A stretch of DNA of 64,000 nt from Phycisphaera sp. (GTDB lineage Bacteria > Planctomycetota > Phycisphaerae > Phycisphaerales > Zrk34). Positions within the stretch are counted from its first letter, which is position 1. Each line of letters starts with the position of its first letter. Below the pieces are notes generated by a model. That model did not search any database and had not been told where the DNA came from. It saw only the letters and a list, made by a program, of their open reading frames with translations. The stretch covers positions 1 to 64,000 of the forward strand of contig WGMA01000005.1 in assembly GCA_016125285.1 (NCBI GenBank), given 5' to 3'. Below are positions 10,398-52,954 of this stretch, in pieces. Both the position numbers and the translations under genes were made by a program.

Positions 10398-10495
10398 GTG
10401 CCACTGGCGGCTTGTCCGCCAGTGCGTCGAATGCCGTGATTTGCGACGTATGAAACGCCACCACCCTGCACTGGCGGGCAAGCCGCCAGTGGCAC
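10398..10495. repeat. Paired-hairpin REP-like element (CACTGGCGG family)
   Basis: Two 27-base hairpins at 10398-10424 and 10469-10495, with stems CACTGGCGG / CCGCCAGTG. The second is the near-perfect reverse complement of the first, separated by 44 bases. The same pair, with a 22-base spacer, lies inside the debranching-enzyme gene at 51744-51819. Here it separates the propeller gene from the end of aroDE. Confidence 0.85.
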
Positions 10496-16302: not shown

Positions 16303-16324
16303 CCGCAATCGGGTGGCGTTCCGG

Positions 16325-16444
16325 GTGGCACTGACAAACACAGCTTGTCAGTGGCGTTTTGCCTATTGATCACGTACATCGAAGAGACACGCTCGCGGCG
16401 CGCAGCTTTCGTCCACTGACAAGGTCCCCTTGTCAGTGCCACCC
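16325..16444. repeat. Paired-hairpin REP-like element (CACTGACAA variant)
   Basis: Two hairpins at 16325-16353 and 16414-16442 with stems CACTGACAA / TTGTCAGTG, bordered by GTGGCAC and GTGCCAC. The layout is that of the 10398 and 51744 elements, but the stem sequence has changed on both sides, as expected when hairpin arms co-vary. Confidence 0.8.
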
Positions 16445-16592
16445 GATCCATCTCGCCTAGCACATCCGCACCAACACCTAGCACAGACCCCCCACTTTCC
16501 CCGCCCCACACGCAATCCGTTACCGCGTACACGCGTTGGACGTATACAATCGGACGTGGAGCATCCGCACCGAATCCCCACGAGGCTCACGC

Positions 16593-31935: not shown

Positions 31936-32733
31936 ATGCCGCAACTCGACGGCAAGTCGATCGTGATCATCGGCGGGACGACCGGCCTGGGCCTGTCGGC
32001 GGCGCGGGCGTTCGTCGCGGCGGGCGCGCGTGTGGTCGTCGTCGGTCGCAACGCCGACAGCGCCGCCGCCGCGGGCGACGTGCTCGGCGACACGGCGCGC
32101 GTGATGACGGGTGACGCCACGGAACCGACGACCGCCGACCGCGCGATCGCGACGGCCGTCGAAGCGTTCGGCGAGCTGCACGGCGTGTACCACGTGGCCG
32201 GAGGCAGCGGACGCAGGCACGGCGACGGCCCGCTGCACGAGCTGACCGACGAGGGCATCGCCTTCACCATCGACCTCAACCTCAAGTCGCTGATCTACAC
32301 CAATCGCGCGGCGGCGCGGTGGTTCGTGGCAAACGACAAGCCGGGCGTCGTGCTGAACATGGGCAGCGTGCTGGGCTGGTCGCCCTCGCCGACGTACTTC
32401 GCCACGCACACCTACGCCGCGACCAAGGCCGCGATCGTCGGGCTCACGAAGTCCGCGGCGGCGACCTACGCCCCGCGCGGCGTCCGCTTCAACGTCATCG
32501 CGCCGGCGCTGGTCGAGACGCCGATGGCGCAGCGTGCGGCGAACGACGAGACGATCCAGCGGTTCATCCAGACGAAGCAGCCGCTCGACGGCGGTCGCAT
32601 CCTCGACCCCGCGGACCTCGACGCCGCGGCGGTGTTCCTCATGTCCGACGCCGCGAAGATGATGACCGGGCAGGTGCTGACGATCGACGGCGGCTGGTGC
32701 GTCAGCGAAGGGCAGATTGAAAATGACCAATGA
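31936..32733 (+). CDS. SDR-family oxidoreductase
   Basis: 265 residues from the ATG at 31936. The Rossmann motif GGTTGLGL (residues 14-21) binds NAD(P). The family's NAG motif is changed to VAGGSG, Ser is in NMGSVLGWS, and the catalytic YAATK follows (Tyr-x-x-x-Lys). The C-terminus GQVLTIDGGW is typical. It likely oxidises a sugar or sugar acid next to eda. The last residues (QIENDQ) and the stop lie in an AATGACCAA repeat, so the C-terminal tail may be repeat-derived. Confidence 0.88.
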   Translation: MPQLDGKSIVIIGGTTGLGLSAARAFVAAGARVVVVGRNADSAAAAGDVLGDTARVMTGDATEPTTADRAIATAVEAFGELHGVYHVAGGSGRRHGDGPLHELTDEGIAFTIDLNLKSLIYTNRAAARWFVANDKPGVVLNMGSVLGWSPSPTYFATHTYAATKAAIVGLTKSAAATYAPRGVRFNVIAPALVETPMAQRAANDETIQRFIQTKQPLDGGRILDPADLDAAAVFLMSDAAKMMTGQVLTIDGGWCVSEGQIENDQ

Positions 32734-32760
32734 CCAAGCCCCAAGGACCAATTCTGCCAA
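32716..32760. repeat. (TGACCAA)-type short repeats
   Basis: AATGACCAATGACCAAG and AAGGACCAATT overlap the SDR stop. Related copies, in inverted pairs, fill the next two gaps. The sulfatase start (CCCAATGACCATG) also resembles the unit. Confidence 0.75.
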
Positions 32761-32799
32761 CCTAAGATTCAGCCACCACTGACCGAAAACGAGTGCCCA

Positions 32800-34293
32800 A
32801 TGACCATGAACAGAATCGCCCTGCTGTTAACGTTGATCGTCGGCGTTTATCTCGCGCCGCGCGCAATCGCCGCCGACAAACCCAACGTCCTGTTCATCGC
32901 GATCGACGACCTGAACGACTGGGTCGGCCCGCTCGGCGGTCACCCGCAGGTCAAGACGCCGAACATGGACCGCCTCGCGGCGCGCGGCGTCACCTTCACC
33001 AACGCCCACTGCCAGGCCCCGCTGTGCAACCCCTCGCGCACCAGCATCCTCACCGGGCTGCGCCCGTCGACCACCGGCGTCTACTCGCTGGGCACGTGGT
33101 TCCGCAAGAACGACAAGTACAAGGACTGGGTCACGCTGCCGCAGCACTTCATGGCCAACGGCTACGCCGCGCTGACCACCGGCAAGGTCTATCACGACGC
33201 GTTCCCGCCGAAGGCCGACCGCGCCGACGGCAAGGAGTTCACCGAGTTCGGCTACCACGGCAGCTTCGGTCCCCGGCCGAAGAAACCCTACGTGCCGGAG
33301 ACCGGTCACCCGATGGTCGACTGGGGCGTGTTCCCGGAGCGCGACGACGAGCAGGAAGACTACAAGGTCGCCGACTGGGCGATCGCGCACATCAAGGATC
33401 GCCCGAAGGACAAGCCGCTGTTCCTGAGCGTCGGGTTCCGCCACCCGCACGTGCCGCTGTACGCGTCGCAGAAGTGGTTCGACATGTACCCGCTCGAGAC
33501 GCTGCAGTTGCCGCCGATGCTGGAGCACGATCGCGACGACACGCCGCGGTTTTCGTGGTACCTGCACTGGCACCTGCCCGAGCCGCGGCTGAAGTGGCTG
33601 CAGGAGCGCGGGCAGCTCGAGCCGATGATCCGCGGGTACCTGGCGAGCGTCAGCTTCGTCGACTCGCAGGTCGGCCGGGTGCTCGACGCGCTCGACGCGG
33701 CCGGGCTGACCGACAACACGGTGATCGTGATGTGGTCGGACCACGGCTACCACCTCGGCGAGAAGGAGATCAGCGGGAAGAACACGCTGTGGCGTGAGTC
33801 GACGCGCGTGCCGCTGATCTTCGCCGGGCCGGGCGTTGCCCAGAAGGGCGTGAAGTGCGACCAGCCCGCGGAGCTGCTCGACGTGTTCCCCACACTGATC
33901 GACCTGTGCGGGCTGACCGCGCACGCGGACCTCGACGGTCACTCGCTGATGCCGCAGCTCAAGGACGCCACCGCCGCGCGCCCCTGGCCGGCGATCTGCA
34001 CGCAGGGGCCGGGCAACCACGTCATCGTCACCGACCGCTGGCGTTACATCCGCTACGCCGACGGGTCGCAGGAGCTGTACGACCGCACCGCCGACCCGCG
34101 CGAGTGGCGCAACATCGCCGACGACCCCAAGTACGCCTCCACCATCACCGAGCTCGCCGCGCAGCTGCCGAAGGACGACACCGCCCCGCTGCCCGGCAAC
34201 AAGACACGCCTCATCGAGATCGTCGACGGCCTGCCCCACTGGGAAGGCGAGCCGATCCATCCGAACGATCCGATCCCAAGCAAGTTCAAATGA
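32800..34293 (+). CDS. Secreted type I sulfatase, iduronate-2-sulfatase-like
   Basis: 497 residues (495 from the ATG at 32806). A signal peptide ends near RAIAADKP. CNPSRTSILTG contains the CxPSR motif whose Cys76 becomes formylglycine. Metal ligands IDDLND (Asp36, Asp37) and SDHGYHLGEK are present, as in iduronate-2-sulfatase-type S1 sulfatases. It removes sulfate from glycans outside the inner membrane and needs a formylglycine-generating enzyme, not seen here. It sits in a run with ROK, SIS and aldolase genes. The stop lies within a TGACCAA repeat. Confidence 0.94.
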   Translation: MTMNRIALLLTLIVGVYLAPRAIAADKPNVLFIAIDDLNDWVGPLGGHPQVKTPNMDRLAARGVTFTNAHCQAPLCNPSRTSILTGLRPSTTGVYSLGTWFRKNDKYKDWVTLPQHFMANGYAALTTGKVYHDAFPPKADRADGKEFTEFGYHGSFGPRPKKPYVPETGHPMVDWGVFPERDDEQEDYKVADWAIAHIKDRPKDKPLFLSVGFRHPHVPLYASQKWFDMYPLETLQLPPMLEHDRDDTPRFSWYLHWHLPEPRLKWLQERGQLEPMIRGYLASVSFVDSQVGRVLDALDAAGLTDNTVIVMWSDHGYHLGEKEISGKNTLWRESTRVPLIFAGPGVAQKGVKCDQPAELLDVFPTLIDLCGLTAHADLDGHSLMPQLKDATAARPWPAICTQGPGNHVIVTDRWRYIRYADGSQELYDRTADPREWRNIADDPKYASTITELAAQLPKDDTAPLPGNKTRLIEIVDGLPHWEGEPIHPNDPIPSKFK

Positions 34294-34389
34294 CCAATGA
34301 CCAAGCATCAATGACCAATACCCACAAATGACGACCGCCGGAGGATTCCGGCATGGGTCATTGGGGAATTGGTCATTCGTCATTAGATC
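34290..34389. repeat. Inverted pair of (TGACCAA)-type repeats between sulfatase and ROK genes
   Basis: Forward copies at 34290-34322 (AAATGACCAATGACCAAGC...) face reverse copies at 34353-34389 (GGTCATTGG...GGTCATTCG). The arms could pair into a long imperfect hairpin in the transcript. Confidence 0.8.
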
Positions 34390-34394
34390 CCATC

Positions 34395-35297
34395 ATGCCT
34401 TACGCCCTCGGCATCGACATCGGCGGCACGAACATCAAGGCCATCGCGGCTAAACCCGATGGCTCGGCGCTCGTGCGCCACACCGAGCCGACGACCGCGG
34501 CGCGCGACGAGCTGATCGACAACGTCGTGCGCGTCATCGGGCAGCTCGACGCCGAGATCGACGGGCCCGTCGGATGGGTCGGCCTGTCGAGCCCCGGACT
34601 CGCGCGGCCCGACGGTCGTTCTATCCAGTGGATGCAGGGCCGGCTCGACTGCGTGCAGGACCTCGACTGGACTACCGAGTTGGAACAGCGCGGCCTGTCA
34701 CACCGCGTGTGGGTGCTCAACGACGCCCACGCCGCGACGATGGGCGAGGCGTGGATCGGCGCGGCGCGTGGCGCGAAGAACGTCGTGCTGCTCACGCTCG
34801 GCACCGGCGTCGGCGGCGGGCTGATCATCGACGGACGCCTCGTCACCGGATGCCTCGGCCGGGCGGGACACCTCGGCCACATCAGCCTCGACATCGACGG
34901 CCAACCCGACATCGTCAAGACGCCCGGCTCGCTCGAAGACATGATCGGCGACTGCACGATCGCCGCGCGCACCGACGGGCGCTTCACCTCGACGCGCGAC
35001 CTCGTCGATGCCGCGACGAACGGCGACGCCGACGCGCAACGCGTGTGGGAGCGCGCGATCCGCGCCCTCGCCTGCGGCGTCGTCTCGCTGATCAACGTCG
35101 CCGACCCCGAGGTCGTCGTCATCGGCGGCGGCATCGCCGAGGCGGGCGACGCGCTGTTCGCCCCGCTGCAACACGAGGTCGACCAACGCGAGTGGCGCCC
35201 CACCGGCGACGCCGCCCGCATCGTCCCCGCCACGCTCGGCTCCTTCGCCGGCGCGATCGGCGCGGCGCGACACGCGATGCTGGAGTCGATCAAGTAA
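34395..35297 (+). CDS. ROK-family sugar kinase without the usual zinc motif
   Basis: 300 residues from the ATG at 34395. The upstream in-frame ATG at 34353 lies in a repeat and is rejected. ROK features are ALGIDIGGTNIKAIA (phosphate loop), VLNDAHAATMGE, and TLGTGVGGGLIIDGRL. The family's CxCGxxGCxE zinc motif is replaced by DGQPDIVKTPGSLEDM, with no Cys. It probably phosphorylates a hexose or amino sugar in the cytoplasm. It is followed by a SIS isomerase, giving a kinase/isomerase pair. Confidence 0.9.
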   Translation: MPYALGIDIGGTNIKAIAAKPDGSALVRHTEPTTAARDELIDNVVRVIGQLDAEIDGPVGWVGLSSPGLARPDGRSIQWMQGRLDCVQDLDWTTELEQRGLSHRVWVLNDAHAATMGEAWIGAARGAKNVVLLTLGTGVGGGLIIDGRLVTGCLGRAGHLGHISLDIDGQPDIVKTPGSLEDMIGDCTIAARTDGRFTSTRDLVDAATNGDADAQRVWERAIRALACGVVSLINVADPEVVVIGGGIAEAGDALFAPLQHEVDQREWRPTGDAARIVPATLGSFAGAIGAARHAMLESIK

Positions 35298-35396
35298 ATG
35301 ACCAATGACCAAGCACCAATGTCCAATGCCCGATAGACTCCCACGTCTGACGCCTCACGACATTGGTCATTGGTGCTTGGTCATTGGTCATTCCAA
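35297..35396. repeat. Inverted pair of (TGACCAA)-type repeats between ROK and SIS genes
   Basis: Forward copies at 35297-35330 and reverse copies at 35361-35396 (CATTGGTCATTGGTGCTTGG). The layout matches the previous gap. Confidence 0.8.
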
Positions 35397-35408
35397 AGGG
35401 CTTTCCGC

Positions 35409-50787: not shown

Positions 50788-50793
50788 TATGAT
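50788..50793 (+). promoter_or_regulatory. Putative -10 box of a leaderless debranching-enzyme transcript
   Basis: TATGAT ends 7 bases before the ATG at 50801. The in-frame ATG at 50789 lies inside this box, which argues for the start at 50801. Confidence 0.45.
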
Positions 50794-50800
50794 GGCGCGC

Positions 50801-52954
50801 ATGAGTGAACCCAACGACCAAACCGCCGTGTCGCGCCCCGATGGGGCCTGCGAAGCGGCTTTCGTACTCGATCTGCCCACCCAGCCGACCGACCACGAAA
50901 CCGCCGTTCCGCCCGACGTCGCCCTCAACACCGAATGGCTCCTGACCAACGGCCTGGGCGGATTCGCCATGGGCTCGGTCTGCCGAGCCACCACACGCCG
51001 ATACCACTCGCTGCTGACCGTCGCGACCATGCCGCCCGTCGGACGCATCAATATGATGCCCACCGTCGACGACGCCGTGGAGTTCAACGGCGAGACCTAC
51101 CGCCTGTCCTGCCACGAGTTCGAGGCGCCCGGGGGATCGGTCTTTCACCCCCGCGGCTGGCGCTGGCTACGGCGGTTTACCCGCGACGCCATGCACGGGT
51201 CGTGCACGTGGACCTACGAGATCGGGCCGATCCGCGTCATCCGCACGCTGCGCCTGGTCTGGGGACACGACGTGGCCGTGATGACCTACCGCGTCGAGCC
51301 CGCCGTCGCGCCGGGGCCCGACGTGCCGATGCCCGACAAGGTCGACGTGACGATCAGCCCGCTGGTCGCCCTGCGTGACTTCCACCAGCAGCCCAAGGCC
51401 GCGGACGGCTACCCGTTCCACGTCCAGCACCGCGACGCGACCGTCACCGTCCGCGCCATGGACACGCAGGGCCCCACGCTGCACATGTACGTCGAGCCCG
51501 GCCGGTTCGTCGGATCCATGGACTGGTGGTACGGCTTCGTCCGCCGCCGCGAGTCCGAACGCGGACAGGACCACCGCGAAGACCTGTTCTGCCCCGGCTG
51601 GTTCCGCCACACCTTTAAAGACATCGTCGGCCAGCCCGCCGAGCTGCGCCTGATCCTCGGCGCCGAAGCGATCGACCTCGACGTGGTCGACACCAACGAC
51701 GGCCGCGCCGAGCACCTGCAGAAGCAGATCGATCACATCATGGGTGCCACTGGCAGCTTGCCTGCCAGTGACGCCAAGACCGCGAAGGGACGCACTGGCG
51801 GGCAAGCCGCCAGTGGCACACTCTCACTCGACGCCACCACGCTCGCCACGCTCGTCTGCGCCGCCGATGACTTCGTCGTCGAACGCCAGGTCGACGGCGA
51901 GCCGATGGCGACCGTGCTCGCCGGCTACCCGTGGTTCGCCGACTGGGGCCGCGACACGATGATCAGCCTGCCGGGCCTGATGCTGTGCACCGGCCGGTTC
52001 GACGAGGCGCGGCGCACGCTGCTGACCTACGCGACGCACATGCGCAACGGGCTCGTGCCCAACCGCTTCGACGACTACGGCGGCGAGCCGCACTACAACA
52101 CCGTCGACGCGTCGCTGTGGTTCGTGCACGCCGCGCTGGAGTACCGCCGCCTCAACCCCGCCGGCGACACCGACGAGGCGTGGGGCGACGTGCTCGCCGG
52201 GGCGTGTGACGAAGTCATCCGCGCGTACACCGAGGGCACCGACGGCGACATCCGCATGGATGACGACCAGCTCGTCTCCGCCGGCAACCCCGACACGCAG
52301 CTGACGTGGATGGACGCGGCGCGCGACGGCGTCGTGTTCACCCCGCGCCACGGCAAGGCGGTCGAGATCAACGCGCTGTGGCACCGCGCCCTGGTCGGCC
52401 TCGGCTTCGGCGCCCGCGCCAAGCAGGTCAAGAAGTCCTTCGGCAAGCTGTTCTGGAACGACGAGCTCGGCTACCTGATCGACCACGTCAACGAGCACGG
52501 CGTCGACCGCTCGCTGCGCCCCAACCAGTGCTTCGCCATCTCGCTGCCCGGCGACCTGCTCACCGGCGACAAGGCCAAGAAGGTCGTCCGCACCGTGCGC
52601 GACCGCCTGCTGACCCCGATGGGCCTGCGCACGCTGCCGGTCGACGACCCGAACTACCACGGCCGCTACGCCGGGTCGATGTTCGAACGCGACCGCGCCT
52701 ACCACCAGGGCACCGTCTGGGCGTGGCTCATCGGCCCGTTCATCGAGGGCTGGCTCCGCGCCCACAAGTTCTCCGACAAGTCCCGCACCGAGGCCCGCAG
52801 CTACATCGCCCCGCTGCTCGAGGAACTGCCCCGCCACAGCGTCGGCCAGCTCCACGAGATCTTCGAAGGCGACCCCCCGCACAACCCCCAGGGCTGCATC
52901 GCCCAGGCGTGGAGCATCGCGGAGTTGCTGCGCGTCGCCGTGCTCGCGGGGTAA
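50801..52954 (+). CDS. Glycogen debranching enzyme (amylo-alpha-1,6-glucosidase)
   Basis: 717 residues from the ATG at 50801. The N-terminal GDE_N domain opens with EWLLTNGLGGFAMGSVCRATTRRYHSL. The C-terminal alpha/alpha toroid (GH133-type) has GYPWFADWGRDTMISLPGLML, FDDYGGEPHYNTVDASLWFV, PRHGKAVEINALWHRALV and CIAQAWSIAELLR, with the likely acid/base Asp in WGRDTM. It removes alpha-1,6 branches of glycogen in the cytoplasm. Residues about 314-340 (linker between the domains) are encoded by a paired-hairpin repeat (51744-51819) and are probably surplus to the fold. The gene stands alone with a leaderless-type promoter. Confidence 0.93.
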   Translation: MSEPNDQTAVSRPDGACEAAFVLDLPTQPTDHETAVPPDVALNTEWLLTNGLGGFAMGSVCRATTRRYHSLLTVATMPPVGRINMMPTVDDAVEFNGETYRLSCHEFEAPGGSVFHPRGWRWLRRFTRDAMHGSCTWTYEIGPIRVIRTLRLVWGHDVAVMTYRVEPAVAPGPDVPMPDKVDVTISPLVALRDFHQQPKAADGYPFHVQHRDATVTVRAMDTQGPTLHMYVEPGRFVGSMDWWYGFVRRRESERGQDHREDLFCPGWFRHTFKDIVGQPAELRLILGAEAIDLDVVDTNDGRAEHLQKQIDHIMGATGSLPASDAKTAKGRTGGQAASGTLSLDATTLATLVCAADDFVVERQVDGEPMATVLAGYPWFADWGRDTMISLPGLMLCTGRFDEARRTLLTYATHMRNGLVPNRFDDYGGEPHYNTVDASLWFVHAALEYRRLNPAGDTDEAWGDVLAGACDEVIRAYTEGTDGDIRMDDDQLVSAGNPDTQLTWMDAARDGVVFTPRHGKAVEINALWHRALVGLGFGARAKQVKKSFGKLFWNDELGYLIDHVNEHGVDRSLRPNQCFAISLPGDLLTGDKAKKVVRTVRDRLLTPMGLRTLPVDDPNYHGRYAGSMFERDRAYHQGTVWAWLIGPFIEGWLRAHKFSDKSRTEARSYIAPLLEELPRHSVGQLHEIFEGDPPHNPQGCIAQAWSIAELLRVAVLAG
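51744..51819. repeat. Paired-hairpin REP-like element inside the debranching-enzyme gene
   Basis: Hairpins at 51744-51770 and 51793-51819 are near-identical to the pair at 10398-10495. The 22-base spacer is 22 bases shorter than there, and the reading frame is kept without a stop. The encoded peptide is GATGSLPASDAKTAKG followed by RTGGQAASG. Confidence 0.88.

Follow-up and report, generated by a model that had tools for sequence, protein, structure and literature searches.

A REPIN-like palindromic element in frame in the interdomain linker of a planctomycete glycogen debranching enzyme

Introduction

The window analysed here is a stretch of 64,000 nt from the genome of a Phycisphaera sp. 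(assembly GCA_016125285.1, contig WGMA01000005.1). It contains a gene for a glycogen debranching enzyme (GDE) in which a pair of inverted hairpins is read through in frame, and the locus raises the question of how a palindromic repeat came to be part of an enzyme and what allows it to stay there. The original prediction, made from the letters of the window, described a mobile palindromic element that the protein seems to tolerate as an insert, nearly identical to an intergenic pair at 10398–10495 and comparable with the palindromic elements of Rickettsia. It proposed that orthologues be aligned and that the hairpins be counted genome-wide, with their share in genes, and named orthologues sharing the peptide with no DNA similarity to the repeat as contrary evidence. 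The genome containing the window (G000; 6.09 Mb in 90 contigs, 97% complete) and its relatives were searched accordingly.

The element and its second copy in the window

The element consists, as predicted, of two inverted 27-nt hairpins, GTGCCACTGGCAGCTTGCCTGCCAGTG and CACTGGCGGGCAAGCCGCCAGTGGCAC, flanking a 22-nt loop (Table 1). The 23-nt hairpin core CACTGGCGGGCAAGCCGCCAGTG is present at four sites in the window with ≤3 mismatches (10402−, 10469+, 51748− and 51793+) and is absent from dinucleotide shuffles of the window. The near-identity claimed for the two copies holds only for their hairpins; the loops are unrelated, and the GDE copy spans 76 nt and the other 98 nt. As single-stranded DNA, the element folds at −35.9 kcal/mol, compared with −18.0 in shuffles (z −7.4); as RNA, it reaches −60.8 kcal/mol, compared with −33.5 (z −8.1), and the RNA folding of two neighbouring stretches of the GDE gene is unremarkable. 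In the 5′ hairpin, stem position 8 shows a compensatory double change from G–C to A–T. Compared with the consensus, the codon GGC has thereby become AGC (Gly to Ser) and CCC has become CCT, which is silent.

Table 1. Location of the GDE gene, the palindromic element, its relatives in other genes and the associated mobile elements. Plain coordinates are window positions; REPIN denotes two inverted REP hairpins with a loop.
Feature	Location	Strand	Remarks
GDE gene (GDE_N + GDE_C)	50789..52954	+	721 aa
REPIN in frame in the GDE gene	51744..51819	.	residues 319–344
5′ REP hairpin	51744..51770	−	
Loop, 22 nt	51771..51792	.	encodes about DAKTAKGR; unrelated to loop of 10398–10495 copy
3′ REP hairpin	51793..51819	+	exact consensus
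Second REPIN, same family	10398..10495	.	not in a gene; 98 nt; longer, unrelated loop
Y1 transposase gene (RAYT)	G000:C31:212-841	−	Y1_Tnp over cut-off; NF047646 over cut-off
Genic copy: GDE	G000 window 51744..51819		in frame; Pfam support
Genic copy: MnmG	G000, L223		in frame; Pfam support
Genic copy: FG-GAP/DUF7133 protein	G000, L245		stretch between those domains; Pfam support
Genic copy: EamA transporter	G000, L061		between its two EamA repeats; Pfam support
Genic copy: CMP-NeuA-like cytidylyltransferase	G017, L257		in frame
Genic copy: dihydrouridine synthase (Dus)	G017, L355		in frame
Genic copy: MnmE, decayed REPIN	G017, L365		Pfam gives GTPase domain; MnmE name from sequence reading
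IS ends adjoining hairpins, loop side	L218, L224, L229, L244, L247, L248		6/8 observed IS ends

The host enzyme and the encoded insert

The reading frame of the GDE gene is open across the element, which encodes GATGSLPAS...TGGQAASGT. The addition of about 25 residues to the interdomain linker, with the frame kept and no stop, was thus correctly predicted; the insert lies between GDE_N (residues 49–276) and GDE_C (358–715). As 76 nt is not a multiple of three, the bare 76 nt cannot have preserved the frame; the net change must also involve bases on the flanks. The coding signal (hexamer coding score) is strong on either side of the insert, both Pfam domains are recovered with high scores and all the residues that are invariant across 30 relatives are retained.

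An AlphaFold model of the GDE with its insert, built with 30 aligned sequences, has a mean pLDDT of 89.6 and a pTM of 0.90; Foldseek matches for the model are glycogen debranching enzymes and related glycosidases. Residues 321–340 of the insert (pLDDT 56/44), located between helices 306–320 and 349–360, form the sole long low-confidence stretch apart from the N-terminus. The model is in keeping with a floppy loop that lies away from the catalytic domain, in an otherwise confidently predicted enzyme fold. The intact frame and fold suggest that the enzyme works and that the insert is tolerated; most likely, it acts as a spacer and nothing further.

None of the 70 aligned GDE orthologues, which comprise relatives and members of other phyla, has the insert or its peptide, so the contrary case named in the original prediction was not encountered. 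The linker between GDE_N and GDE_C varies in length across this alignment; the orthologues are distant (≤57% identity), and the linkers are compared at the protein level. The nearest named relative, Planctomycetales bacterium ZRK34, has a GDE 57% identical over the alignment. It is apparently genome G006, in which the GDE match has identical contig coordinates and an identical linker sequence. The repeat family is present elsewhere in its genome (18/16 hairpins), and no hairpin was found in the region around its GDE gene (L259). A strain-level empty site was not found in the collections searched. The GDE copy of the REPIN is lineage-specific and in frame, and the surrounding frame and domains are intact.

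The hairpin family in this genome and its relatives

The genome-wide count proposed earlier gave 67 hairpins at ≤3 mismatches in the 6.09 Mb of G000, and a reversed-pattern control across the same genome gave none. The hairpins mostly form facing ‘−+’ pairs with a GTGC foot outward, usually after GG or GT; most sites read in two further genomes, G017 and G081, are arranged likewise. In the 70 hairpins read, pairing is kept at 623 of 630 stem positions, and eight compensatory double changes were counted, one of them in the GDE copy, compared with a mean of 0.52 and a maximum of three in shuffles. Since the covarying set includes non-genic copies, upkeep of the stem is to be ascribed to the element and not to the host gene; palindrome correction, perhaps by template switching, may be an alternative source of this upkeep. 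The consensus hairpins are free of stop codons in all six frames.

Four REPINs of G017 share an identical 20-nt loop, CTTAAAACGTACGGCTTTTT, and have hairpin arms differing by ≤1 nt each, which is consistent with recent copying of hairpins and loop as units. The loops differ between the copies of G000. An origin of the loop from the target site was considered and is weakened by the identical loops of G017 and by the near-constant length and weak consensus of the loops in G017 and G081.

A class-wide scan identified the strict REPIN pattern in four of 397 genomes, a patchy distribution. A window pair at 16322–16445 is also REPIN-like and inverted, with a different sequence (CGGGTGGCACTGACAA..TTGTCAGTGG / CCACTGACAA..TTGTCAGTGCCACCCG); a hairpin related to it is located near the L247 end, beside a copy of the main family. 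Several short repeats of the AATGACCAATGACCAAG type, direct and inverted, are present at 32707–35403 of the window.

The associated transposase

A gene for a Y1 transposase (RAYT) in G000 is flanked by hairpins of the same family, at 182(+), 839(−) and 915(+) of contig C31. Its product and a homologue in G017, a genome of the same order, pass the cut-off of the NCBIfam equivalog NF047646 (REP_Tyr_transpos). The two proteins are 58% identical, and the G017 gene (contig C53) is placed between one ‘−’ and one ‘+’ hairpin of the family, a REPIN-like bracket. The C31 protein has HVH at residues 83–85 and Y163 as its putative catalytic residue; its best solved relative is TnpAREP (4er8), a weak match (E 0.0047). 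The shared hairpins and the transposase family indicate that this is a REPIN/RAYT system, with the GDE insert as one non-autonomous copy.

Among the four genomes with the family at high copy, a RAYT was found in two and no close RAYT in the other two. G081 has 28 intact REPINs and no close RAYT match; an assembly gap and a diverged enzyme are the only explanations that we can offer. In the single-contig genome G006, hairpins are present, but neither the strict REPIN pattern nor a close RAYT was found; decay following loss of the transposase may account for this.

A second Y1 transposase gene of G000 (L252:2256-3100, at about 51300 of contig C44) has another palindrome on its flanks, GTTTAGCGACGCCCCGCAGGGGCGTGCT / GAGCACGGCCC..GGGCCGTCGCTAAAC, and probably represents a second REP/RAYT family.

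Other in-frame copies

The genic share of the sites, judged by a home-made hexamer coding score and Pfam on the regions around them, is four of 41 in G000; three further genic copies were found in G017 (Table 1). If the genome is about 85% coding, an assumed figure, four of 41 is far below random expectation, which indicates strong removal or avoidance of genic copies and shows tolerance to be rare. Long ORFs across REPINs at L246 and L251 have no Pfam domain and were rejected as spurious. A REPIN of G017 (L298) that interrupts what may be an IS630-like transposase was excluded from the genic count.

Absence of the insert elsewhere was checked with orthologues for GDE and MnmG; the analysis of the other five hosts covered their domain annotation. 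The MnmG insert is absent from 11 relatives, in which the matches break at about 540–580 and resume at 615–634, and from the aligned E. coli MnmG structure. Six of the seven genic copies are entered in the GATGG..PAS frame, rich in Gly, Ala, Ser and Thr, and MnmE in a frame of the VPLAACPPV type; the exit frames vary with loop length. For six of seven copies in any one frame P = 0.02, in a set found partly by requiring open frames, and the frame bias is therefore modest and suggestive only.

Three of the seven host proteins modify tRNA (MnmG in G000; MnmE and Dus in G017), in a small set; MnmE and MnmG are partners. The MnmG gene contains a second, unrelated palindromic repeat in frame (L223:1784-1819, at about 86785 of contig C12), CCCTCTCCCnnnGGGAGAGGG, encoding LPLPPGEGRGEG; this repeat has 40 copies in G000. 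The Dus and MnmE-like proteins of G017 have other repeat-derived-looking stretches beside the REPIN (PPSSEGGAGGG..., PLPLKGEG), and the MnmE-like protein also has a QQAP tandem; the same loops seem, from these sequences, to accept several unrelated repeats. At L372:2456-2529 (G017, contig C15), a REPIN appears to provide the stop codon for a gene whose product ends with an AraC-like helix–turn–helix sequence.

Origin of the insert and alternative explanations

The absence of the insert from orthologues, the dispersed copies, the hairpin-flanked RAYT and the predicted disordered loop support the view of a mobile palindromic element tolerated within a protein. Very probably, the element is a REPIN, non-autonomous, mobilised by a RAYT (an HUH/tyrosine transposase) and tolerated in the GDE linker. 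The RAYT would cleave the hairpins out of a single-stranded donor and join them, as a unit, to the GDE gene. Genic insertions would mostly be harmful and hence lost; the GDE copy may have survived because the linker is variable in length, the element has no stop and keeps the frame, and the frame read encodes a flexible peptide rich in Gly, Ala, Ser and Thr.

The hairpin might instead serve in the mRNA, slowing the ribosome at the domain boundary so that the N-terminal domain folds before the catalytic domain. The strong RNA fold amid unremarkable neighbouring stretches, the position of the element between two domains and the paired change that keeps the stem in the GDE copy would suit such pausing. 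It is nevertheless very unlikely, as all 70 aligned relatives manage without the element, the stems covary throughout the family, non-genic copies included, and unrelated proteins carry the same element, both between and inside domains.

Insertions usually inactivate genes, and the low genic share in G000 agrees with this, so the interrupted GDE could be a decaying pseudogene or a non-functional enzyme. The open frame of 721 aa, the coding signal on both sides, the two Pfam domains, the confident fold and the presence of the invariant residues leave this reading with a very small probability.

A third possibility is that the repeat is a fragment or an end of a larger transposon of the IS3 family and not a REPIN mobilised by a RAYT. 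At six contig ends of G000, a hairpin is separated by 3–20 nt from an end of one IS3-family-like element (TGAGGTTCCCCACGAA...). The IS, however, has its own terminal repeat, TGAGGTTCCCC...GGGGAACCTCA; its position is on the side of the hairpins that faces the loop, which suggests insertion in REPIN loops; IS sequence is missing from most REPIN copies; and the IS ends at L225 and L227 have no adjoining hairpin. The different termini and the loop-side position led us to reject the hairpin as an IS end, and this origin is extremely improbable. The arrangement looks like an IS3-family element that inserted in REPIN loops or targets REPs. IS1397 and ISKpn1 target enterobacterial BIMEs.

That the insert is an ancestral segment of the protein resembling the repeat by chance, as the variable linker length might allow, has virtually no probability and was ruled out by the lack of shuffle matches, the DNA identity to dozens of dispersed copies and the absence of the peptide from every orthologue.

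Comparison with known systems

REPIN/RAYT systems (Bertels and Rainey 2011, PMC3116915) and the classes of TnpAREP (PMC6006769) have been described previously. The present family resembles them in that two inverted REP hairpins with a variable loop form the mobile unit, dispersed mostly outside genes, and in that copies of the same REP lie on either side of a cognate Y1 HUH transposase gene (C31 of G000, C53 of G017). Unlike most of these systems, it has a GTGC foot instead of GTAG/GTGG and a planctomycete host, and the motifs of its RAYT (EHVH / WQ / YVHANP) do not exactly match the subclasses listed in PMC6006769. The GTAG/GTGG foot is common and not universal, being absent from the structures that flank classes 2.6 and 3 (PMC6006769), so the GTGC foot lowers the probability of membership without excluding it. 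In-frame REP insertions have been reported within some REP-flanked tnpAREP genes (PMC6006769).

Di Nocera et al. (2013, PMC3733652) described GTAG and CGTC REPs inside genes of many species, most frequent in Opitutus terrae and R. conorii. Over half of these intragenic REPs are dimers or groups encoding 20–30 residues; the hosts include genes for a tRNA pseudouridine synthase and DNA repair, and linkers and loops were suggested to tolerate REPs. In GDE and six other conserved genes studied here, the REP likewise lies wholly inside the ORF of a known protein and keeps the frame. The likeness extends to REP dimers in conserved genes, the length of 20–30 residues and the placement in linkers or loops, including the cases in Opitutus terrae of the PVC superphylum; the repeat family and the lineage are different.

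The comparison with Rickettsia palindromic elements (RPEs) is a good analogy, since these are also palindromic repeats in frame in the ORFs of unrelated, likely functional proteins. The GDE element is, however, a different repeat and not an RPE, being a REPIN with an identifiable RAYT; it is set apart by this RAYT and the GTGC foot. A CGTC tag marks the R. conorii elements, and REPs with this tag were reported without a dedicated transposase (PMC3733652). Insertion of IS elements into REPs has been reported for Pseudomonas, Neisseria and Sinorhizobium (PMC3733652); the IS3-family element appears similarly within several REPIN loops, but here the IS is not the cause of the GDE insert.

Significance

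In-frame REPs in genes have already been published (Di Nocera 2013; Rickettsia RPEs), and the GDE case is a well-supported new example. What is added here is the link between the insert and a RAYT, the comparison with 70 orthologues, the structure prediction, a compensatory change located in a coding copy and the tally of frames; in-frame protein inserts are thereby tied directly to an identifiable transposase system. Short GATGG..PAS or TGGQAASGT stretches in planctomycete proteins should be treated with caution, as they can be inserts of mobile elements and not conserved domains.

REPINs might, further, be a recurrent source of new protein linkers in this planctomycete lineage, given the stop-free hairpin, the flexible-peptide frame of six of the seven genic copies and the apparent over-representation of tRNA-modifying hosts; we consider this unlikely. 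If true, it would mean that properties of the element, due to chance or selected, make the hairpin tolerable inside proteins. The presence of the family in four genomes allows its entry into proteins, the frames that survive and mere tolerance to be tested.
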